Shown here: in pieces, positions 24,235-27,297 of the stretch
How positions within the stretch are numbered: the first letter of the stretch is position 1
How the letters are laid out: the number at the start of each line of letters is the position of its first letter
Assembly (NCBI GenBank): GCA_028705955.1
Contig: JAQWCN010000002.1
Location: 1-49,160, forward strand
DNA: 49,160 nt
Source: Eubacteriaceae bacterium
Lineage (GTDB): Bacteria > Bacillota > Clostridia > Eubacteriales > Eubacteriaceae
Reading direction: 5' to 3'
The notes under the pieces: model-generated
What the model was told of the DNA's origin: nothing
Seen by the model: the letters and a program-made list of their open reading frames with translations, nothing else
Databases searched by the model: none
Position numbers and translations under genes: made by a program

Positions 24235-24310
24235 TGGAGCTGAGAGCCGGATTCGAACCGGCGACCTATTGATTACGAATCAATTGCGCTACCAACTGTG
24301 CCATCCCAGC
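24235..24310 (-). tRNA. tRNA-Thr (anticodon CGT), CCA encoded
   Basis: Reverse complement GCTGGGATGGCACAGTTGGTAGCGCAATTGATTCGTAATCAATAGGTCGCCGGTTCGAATCCGGCTCTCAGCTCCA folds as cloverleaf; anticodon loop TTCGTAA. Confidence 0.95.
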
Positions 24311-24459
24311 GTTTTGAACGTAGTGTATTATACCGTTTATGATGAAGCAATGCAAGATAATTTTTGAGACAATTTAATTTTCTTGATATAAAAATTTTTT
24401 TAAAAAAGGGCTGAGATCAATTTATAAATTCTTTATCTTATGATAAAATAATTTTGAAT

Positions 24460-24557
24460 CAAGAGTAGATAAGACGCGTTTTAAGTGTCAAAGGATGGGA
24501 AGTTGCCTTTGAACGAAGTCATCACTGGGATGCGCGGTGTCTTATCGCTTCCGCTTG
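24460..24557 (+). promoter_or_regulatory. Tetrahydrofolate (THF) riboswitch aptamer
   Basis: Matches folT-associated THF riboswitch core: GAGTAGAT, CGCGTT..AAGTG, GGATGGGA, ACGAAG, GCGCGGTG, CCGCTT; stems GATAAGAC/GTCTTATC, CAAAGG/CCTTTG and P1 CAAG/CTTG. Confidence 0.93.
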
Positions 24558-24631
24558 TAAACTCGATCACTTGCCGTTTTCAGAACGTTGGCAAGCCTGC
24601 GGAAGCATTACTTATTTCAATTGGAGGTTAA

Positions 24632-25390
24632 ATGATGAAAAGTAATGCTTTATCCGGTTATTCTATTTCCAATACGCGTCGAATGGTGAGCTGTGCCCTT
24701 CTTATTGCATTGAGTATGGTGCTTAAACTCATTTTTGAAGTGTATATTCCACTGGGCGGATTCCCGTCTTTAAGAATTAATCTGACGTCGATTCCCATTA
24801 TGCTTTCCGGTATTCTTTTTGGACCTGCAGCAGGTTTTAGTGTCGGCGCTATTTCTGATCTGTTGTGTTTTGTGATTAAGCCGAGCGGTCCCTACTTTCC
24901 AGGATTCACACTGGCTTCGGCACTTACAGGGATGATTCCGGGCCTTATGTGGCGGCTGATTAACAAAAGACCCGTTGCACATCTGGAATGGTTCAATTTG
25001 GTGTGTGTGAGTGTTTCAATGGCAATTTGCATTGGACTGGGGGTATTTCAATTCCAGAACGGTGTCGTGACTTACTCAGGAGCAGCGATTCACCCCCTTC
25101 TGATGGCACTTTTCATTGGCTTAATGCTTTTATTTGTTCTGTATCCGGTAATCTTGAGAAAAAGCAGTTGGGAGCTGGTGGATGATCAATTGTTATTTAT
25201 CGTCAGTCTGACGCAGATCATCTGTTCAGTTATTCTCAATACAATCTTTTTGATCATGCTGTATGGACAGACGGCAGCGGTTCTACTCCCTGCACGGGTT
25301 ATTACAAACATTTTTACCATTCCATTGTATACCATTTGTCTGGCCGGTGTCTTGCGGCTGCTCCCCGAAAGCTATAAAGGGATACGATGA
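24632..25390 (+). CDS. folT: Folate ECF transporter S component (FolT-like)
   Basis: S-component pattern (SCALLIALSMVLKLIFEVYIPLGGFPSLRINLTSIPIMLSGILFGPAAGFSVGAISDLL) downstream of the THF riboswitch. Confidence 0.88.
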   Translation: MMKSNALSGYSISNTRRMVSCALLIALSMVLKLIFEVYIPLGGFPSLRINLTSIPIMLSGILFGPAAGFSVGAISDLLCFVIKPSGPYFPGFTLASALTGMIPGLMWRLINKRPVAHLEWFNLVCVSVSMAICIGLGVFQFQNGVVTYSGAAIHPLLMALFIGLMLLFVLYPVILRKSSWELVDDQLLFIVSLTQIICSVILNTIFLIMLYGQTAAVLLPARVITNIFTIPLYTICLAGVLRLLPESYKGIR

Positions 25391-25400
25391 ATTCACTTTT

Positions 25401-25428
25401 GAACCTGTTTTGACAGGTTCTTTTTTTT
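25401..25428 (+). terminator. Intrinsic terminator
   Basis: gaacctgttttgacaggttctttttttt. Confidence 0.9.
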
Positions 25429-25542: not shown

Positions 25543-27297
25543 TTGGAACGTGATGCTTTAAATAAAATGACTGTTGTTAAATTGCGGGATCAGGCTAAAA
25601 GCATGGGCCTGGCTGTCAAGACAAAAATGAAAAAAGATGAGATTATTGCGCTTTTATTATCTGAAAAAAAACCAGATAGCCAAGCAAAACAAAATGATCA
25701 GGAAGTCGAAAAAGAAAAAAAGATCAAAAACCCTAAAAACAGAGAAAAAAAACAGACAGATGGTAAAAATGCGTCCAGAAAAAAAAGAGAACAATCCAAA
25801 AATCATAAAACGGCAGACCAGGAACATAACCATCGTGGCCGCAGAGATGGAAAAAGTGGCTTTGATAACCGCTATGCCAAAATAAAAGATAACATCCAGG
25901 ATGCCATGCCCTACGAAGGTCCGGTGGAAATACTGCCGGAAGGATTTGGATTCATCCGCCGGGGGGAAAAAGAAAAACCCATTTATGTTTCCGCCTCCCA
26001 GGTTCAGAAATTCAAACTGGTTACCGGGGATGTGCTGGGAGGGAAAGTCAGACCGCCAAAATCCGGTGAAAAATACGCAGCCATGTTATTCCTTGAATCT
26101 GTAAATGGGACACAAACATCTGATATTATAGAAAAAATGAATACCCTGATGCAAGCAGAAGACAAAGGGGAAACCGACCGCTATAACAGTACCCAGTGGG
26201 GGATTTTGGATATTAACCCAGAAGGCTTTGGCTTTTTAAGAACCAATAATTATTTATCCGGGGATCAGGATATTTATATTGCAGCAAATCAGATCCGGCG
26301 CTACCGTTTGAGAAGTGGTGACAAAATAGAAGGACGGGTTCGCCGGTCGGCAGAAAATGAAAAATTCGATGCATTGCTTTATGTGGAACGGGTCAATGGC
26401 GATTTACCCGAAACGGTGACGCACCGGCCGCATTTTGAACAGCTGACGCCGATTTTTCCCAACCAGCGGATTACCCTGGAAACGGAAAAAGATGAACTGT
26501 CGGCCCGAATGATTGATTTATTTGCCCCGGTCGGAAGGGGACAGCGGGGGCTCATCGTCGCACCGCCTAAAGCTGGAAAGACAACGCTCCTGAAGGCTAT
26601 CGCCAGAGGCATAACCCGGAATCACCCAGACATTGAACTCATCATTTTGCTGGTGGACGAACGGCCGGAGGAAGTGACGGATATGCGTCGGTCGGTCAAA
26701 GCCGATATTGTTTTTTCCACCTTTGACGAACCGGCGGTAAAACATCTTCAGGCTGCGGAAATGGTTCTGGCCAGGGGAAAACGTCTGGTTGAACAGAATA
26801 AAGACGTGGTTATTCTTGTCGACAGTCTGACACGGCTGACCCGGGGGAACAACCTGGTGATTGAACCGTCAGGACGAACGCTAACCGGGGGATTGGATCC
26901 GGAAAGTCTGTACTTACCAAAGAAGTTCTTTGGCAGCGCCAGAAAAATTGAAAATGGCGGAAGCTTAACGATCCTGGCGACGGCATTGGTCGAAACCGGC
27001 AGCCGAATGGATGATATTATCTATGAAGAATTTAAGGGAACCGGCAACATGGAGCTTCATTTAACCAGAGAATTGAGTGAACGCCGGATTTATCCGGCAA
27101 TTGATCTTCAAAAGAGTGGAACCCGCCGGGAAGATTTGCTGCTTTCAACCGATGAGCAGCGGGTCGCCTTTAATATCAGAAAAACGTACGGGCGAAACGG
27201 CAGGGAAGCAATGACGGAAAAAGTCATTACGCTTCTGGAAAGGACCAGCAGCAATGCAGGATTAATTGGAAAAATTGTAGGAAGCCGGAAAAAATAA
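25543..27297 (+). CDS. rho: Transcription termination factor Rho with duplicated RNA-binding domain
   Basis: Rho ATPase (GRGQRGLIVAPPKAGKTTLLKAIARGI; DSLTRLTRGNN); two N-terminal OB/CSD modules (EGFGFIRR..., EGFGFLRT...). Confidence 0.96.
   Translation: MERDALNKMTVVKLRDQAKSMGLAVKTKMKKDEIIALLLSEKKPDSQAKQNDQEVEKEKKIKNPKNREKKQTDGKNASRKKREQSKNHKTADQEHNHRGRRDGKSGFDNRYAKIKDNIQDAMPYEGPVEILPEGFGFIRRGEKEKPIYVSASQVQKFKLVTGDVLGGKVRPPKSGEKYAAMLFLESVNGTQTSDIIEKMNTLMQAEDKGETDRYNSTQWGILDINPEGFGFLRTNNYLSGDQDIYIAANQIRRYRLRSGDKIEGRVRRSAENEKFDALLYVERVNGDLPETVTHRPHFEQLTPIFPNQRITLETEKDELSARMIDLFAPVGRGQRGLIVAPPKAGKTTLLKAIARGITRNHPDIELIILLVDERPEEVTDMRRSVKADIVFSTFDEPAVKHLQAAEMVLARGKRLVEQNKDVVILVDSLTRLTRGNNLVIEPSGRTLTGGLDPESLYLPKKFFGSARKIENGGSLTILATALVETGSRMDDIIYEEFKGTGNMELHLTRELSERRIYPAIDLQKSGTRREDLLLSTDEQRVAFNIRKTYGRNGREAMTEKVITLLERTSSNAGLIGKIVGSRKK

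Follow-up and report, generated by a model that had tools for sequence, protein, structure and literature searches.

A THF-I riboswitch leader upstream of folT with a predicted translational sequestor helix that reaches into the first codons of the transporter gene

The window, by which we mean the whole stretch of 49,160 nucleotides analyzed here, carries a gene for a folate-family ECF transporter S component, folT, preceded by a riboswitch aptamer of the THF-I (tetrahydrofolate) class. The features on which the argument depends are the following:

24421–24449, plus strand: possible extended −10 promoter, TTTATA-17-TAAAAT, with TG ahead of the −10
24459–24558, plus strand: THF-I riboswitch aptamer (RF01831)
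24497–24502, plus strand: L3 loop, GGGAAG
24547–24554, plus strand: J2/1-P1 3′ strand GCUUCCGC, the aptamer switching strand, complementary to 24599–24606
24570–24595, plus strand: linker hairpin, CUUGCC...GGCAAG
24599–24606, plus strand: antisequestor 3′ strand GCGGAAGC, which pairs with 24547–24554
24603–24613, plus strand: sequestor 5′ strand AAGCAUUACUU
24623–24627, plus strand: Shine-Dalgarno sequence (SD), GGAGG
24632–25390, plus strand: folT
24635–24637, plus strand: probable folT start codon, ATG
24640–24650, plus strand: sequestor 3′ strand AAGUAAUGCUU, within folT codons 2–6 (+6 to +16)
25401–25420, plus strand: intrinsic terminator 3′ of folT

The identification of folT, which provides the folate-gene linkage of the aptamer, comes from a TIGR04518 match of 117 bits against a cut-off of 60, and the terminator behind the gene (an 8-bp stem followed by T8) suggests that folT is transcribed as a single gene. 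The next gene is rho (window 25543–27297), which has a long Lys/Glu-rich insertion behind its N-terminal domain. A tRNA-Thr(CGT) gene (window 24235–24310, minus strand) lies on the strand opposite to the riboswitch, between it and a phosphate butyryltransferase-like gene. From the candidate promoter, transcription would possibly start just 5′ of the aptamer; this site was identified by a consensus scan only, which returned 6 extended −10-type sites in the region against 3.9 expected.

The first-pass annotation had placed a THF riboswitch at 24460–24557, and a covariance-model search bore this out, with an RF01831 match at 24459–24558 that scored 64.3 bits (E = 2.1e-12, gathering score 36) and covered model positions 1–99 of 99. 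This is the single copy of RF01831 in the assembly, which is ~88% complete. In the THF-I class, J2/1 and L3 are known to form a pseudoknot, and the ligand site relevant to control lies within it (PMC9881143). In the window, GGAAG in L3 (24498–24502) can pair with CUUCC in J2/1 (24548–24552), a pseudoknot recognized here by complementarity only, with a compensatory change in one relative (L032, described below). We infer from these features that the aptamer is a ligand-responsive THF-I riboswitch that binds THF.

Two in-frame ATG codons, at 24632 and 24635, could serve as the start of folT. The second is probably the one used, because the corresponding codon is the start in relatives that share this leader, with a conserved MKSNA N-terminus, and because its spacing from the SD is better (7 versus 4 nt). 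From ATG 24635, codons 2–5 read AAA AGT AAT GCT (K-S-N-A).

Downstream of the aptamer, two helices can form that overlap in one strand. The antisequestor joins GCTTCCGC at 24547–24554 to GCGGAAGC at 24599–24606 (8/8 Watson-Crick), and the sequestor joins AAGCATTACTT at 24603–24613 to AAGTAATGCTT at 24640–24650 (11/11 Watson-Crick); both complementarities, as well as the sharing of AAGC (24603–24606) between them, had been proposed in the first-pass annotation and were confirmed in the sequence. The two antisequestor strands are joined up by the linker hairpin, which was predicted in every fold run. The further proposal that the helices exclude each other, one of them closing off the start region, is supported by this overlap and by the conservation of both helices across the family along with the shared switching strand. 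The sequestor had also been said to enclose the SD and the ATG: its loop does hold GGAGG and the start, and it is the position of the start that needs correction, from 24632 to, probably, 24635.

Taking the window sequence alone, dinucleotide shuffles of the linker gave p = 0.013 for the antisequestor and p = 0.003 for the sequestor, the latter being the lowest value possible with 300 shuffles; folding of the whole region was only mildly unusual (z about −2). The leader strand paired best with the folT start window (−18.1 kcal/mol), compared with a mean of −8.9 and a best of −15.4 for 192 other windows along the gene. The shuffles and this gene-wide scan, together with the slid-register and swap controls given below, rule out a chance match as the source of the pairing.

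We consider it very probable that this riboswitch represses translation of folT, acting as a translational OFF switch. Without THF, GCUUCCGC would pair with GCGGAAGC, and the antisequestor would break the top of the sequestor and leave the start region available. With THF bound, the L3 pseudoknot and P1 would retain J2/1, and GCGGAAGC would be released; the freed AAGCAUUACUU would then pair with codons 2–6, and the loop closed by the sequestor, within the 30S footprint, would contain both the SD and the AUG. Since the CUUCC of J2/1 is common to the L3 pseudoknot and the core of the antisequestor, ligand binding should free GCGGAAGC and thereby permit the coding-arm helix. This need of the pseudoknot for the antisequestor's CUUCC, along with the fit to feedback on a folate transporter, points to THF as the signal for off, and the level of control would be translational. 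Shut-off would come about through a structured start region that excludes the 30S subunit, not through base-pairing of the SD. The 30S subunit covers a stretch of mRNA that includes positions +6 to +16 from the start, and because the 3′ arm of the sequestor falls within this stretch, it could block initiation despite an unpaired SD.

Relatives of the leader were collected in a survey of RF01831 in 100 genomes, the window's own included, from which 91 leaders (labelled L) were extracted. RF01831 was present in 82 of the 100 genomes, and in 61 of 67 in the order. Within the window's family, window-type folT leaders occur in six of nine genera (g1, g3, g4, g6, g7 and g8); the folT leaders of g5 and g9 resemble anti-SD hairpins, and in g2 the sole RF01831 match precedes folE. 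Family f3 has window-type leaders in g11, g21 and g24 and the same layout with a different sequence in g15, g19 and g25, and families f2, f4 and f5 mostly have other arrangements. The coding-arm sequestor is absent in L062, L029 and L033, which belong to the same order, and L091 and L058 gave no pairing signal at the start window. A module search with a narrow pattern, which misses variants, matched 6 of 388 class genomes, all from two families of one order, the window's own and another; the reversed-pattern control gave no matches. Two variants were seen in passing. In genus g12 (L058, L060, L033 and L055), GUAUUACUC, which follows the antisequestor, seems to have as its partner not codons but the SD together with the nucleotides immediately 5′ of the start codon. 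In L042, where J2/1 reads GCAUCC, the antisequestor no longer has its GGAA, and a shifted antisequestor pairing on the P1 strand, GCUUGU/ACAAGC, seems to take its place.

THF-I sites also precede folE in g2, g3 and g6, with PF01227 confirming folE for L036 and L075. In these folE leaders (L036–L039, L046, L057, L072 and L075–L082), the same switching strand forms the 5′ arm of an intrinsic terminator, with a stem of 11–16 pairs and a T-run at its end; the stem in g3 nearly matches the folT sequestor (GGAAGCATTGCTTAA / TTGAGTAATGCTTTT). That an identical GGAAGC strand opens a stem ending in a T-run within the same family, with stems almost as in folT, raises the question of whether the switch ahead of folT likewise acts on transcription, either with the coding-arm hairpin as a terminator or through early termination within folT when translation fails to start. 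We judge this unlikely, given that the loop of the sequestor contains the SD and the start codon, that the stem in the window is followed by UUUAUCC, and that a terminator scan between the aptamer and folT found no intrinsic terminator. For want of a U-run, the window hairpin was rejected as a terminator.

Conservation of the pairing was examined in an alignment of 19 distinct gap-free leader blocks, anchored by sequence and start codon and not by complementarity. Across these leaders, 94.7% of cells were paired in the antisequestor and 93.3% in the sequestor, compared with 35–55% when the partner was slid by 1–3 columns. Covariation in related folT leaders had been put forward in the first-pass annotation as a check; the pairing is kept, also where whole strands have been replaced, but true double changes in the 19 alignable leaders are few, with two in the sequestor and none in the antisequestor (shuffle control for double changes, only 26/500). 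Lineages unrelated in sequence retain the sequestor pairing as GGGGUUU/AAACCCC (L088/L090), GGAGCUU/AAGCUC (L017) and UGUUGU/ACAACA (L032). In a swap test of 21 leaders, native sequestor pairs totaled −286 kcal/mol versus −227 (sd 12) for swapped ones (permutation p = 5e-5); the value was again p = 5e-5 with one leader per genus and p = 0.008 for 11 divergent, hand-picked leaders, and the antisequestor gave p = 5.5e-4, all of these tests treating genera as exchangeable and leaving ancestry uncorrected. L032 further displays a three-way change, in which U to C in J2/1 is accompanied by A to G both in L3 and in the antisequestor, as predicted for mutually exclusive partners of J2/1.

The coding arm leaves a mark on codon choice as well. 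Among the 19 distinct leaders, folT codons 2–5 show nearly no synonymous change (AAA 17/18, AGT 19/19, AAT 18/18 and GCT 16/16), and the lone exception, AAG in L027, has a corresponding U to C change in the opposite strand. The commonest codon averages 0.50 at 52 further conserved positions in these genes, none of which uses a single codon throughout. This comparison accounts for ancestry, since the two sets of codons have a common history. It could be argued that MKSNA is instead kept for the protein or for initiation, for example through a preference for certain start-proximal codons, and that the complementarity to the leader is secondary; the high conservation of MKSNA and the small number of double changes among the 19 leaders would fit such a cause. 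We find this quite improbable. The Ser, Asn and Ala codons lack synonymous variation while other conserved codons vary, and this codon freeze disfavors a protein-level cause; moreover, lineages with other N-termini (MSNPG, MNRAS and MKTTT) still pair with their own leaders, and FolT proteins of the same family that have other platforms (L003, L009 and L073) lack MKSNA. The codon freeze and the pairing kept in replaced strands are stronger evidence than the double changes, and they support the view that requirements of the RNA determine the first residues of FolT.

With the 3′ strand of the aptamer blocked in the folding model of the window, the antisequestor fell from 1.00 to 0.00 and the sequestor rose from 0.00 to 0.91. 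For transcripts ending at 24651–24665, the two states lie ≤1 kcal/mol apart in the model; when the RNA extends to at least 24675, a −13.7 kcal/mol hairpin between the SD and downstream codons appears in the antisequestor state, and the predicted ON state would not be open once codons to about 14 are included. Such an SD-burying hairpin is not seen in the predicted folds of most relatives. Equilibrium energies, the outcome of which depends on the 3′ end chosen, were not decisive as proof of switching. In the predicted sequestered state the SD is unpaired at about 0.88 and its accessibility is no lower, as it sits in the loop of the sequestor; an SD that is itself base-paired in the OFF state, a common but not required trait of such switches, is thus not what is found here. 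Genes of uptake and synthesis would be expected to be repressed by their end product, and the opposite direction of control, with THF switching folT on, is extremely improbable, since the later hairpin that hides the SD in the antisequestor state of the window model, and that would speak for it, is absent from most relatives, and since in the folE leaders, which have the matching geometry, ligand would release a terminator.

The riboswitch class is already known, and the window adds a further member to it, in itself a modest find. Like other THF-I riboswitches, it has a full-length aptamer above the gathering cut-off, an association with folT as the controlled gene and a possible J2/1-L3 pseudoknot (PMC9881143), and it differs in that its platform uses folT codons 2–6 as a sequestor arm. 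An anti-SD hairpin seems to be used instead by many relatives in the class, for example L003, where CUCCUUUGUAGC / GCUGCAAAGGAG was recognized by eye. With the THF-II riboswitch (folE motif), the window shares the ligand class and a translational OFF logic (PMC6800512, PMC9881143); the THF-II aptamer is a different one, and its RBS is part of P1, whereas the platform in the window is separate. As in the add adenine riboswitch of Vibrio vulnificus, alternative helices would decide whether the SD and start codon can be reached (PMC5847336), but there the ligand opens the start region, while here it would close it, and the aptamers are distinct. Platforms of the coding-arm type may have been described earlier in the THF-I literature.

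In g3 and g6, the aptamer before folT shares 82–89% identity with the one before folE, which fits a duplication. We give about even chances to the broader proposal that one switching module was duplicated in the family and serves before folE as the 5′ arm of a terminator and before folT as a sequestor, the 3′ arm of which is formed by the first codons, so that MKSNA would be dictated by the RNA. The sister leaders of folT and folE, with their nearly equal strands, offer a natural series for following shifts between translational and transcriptional output. For folT itself, the comparative evidence makes the case that part of the riboswitch platform lies in the coding sequence and holds codons 2–5 of the transporter fixed.
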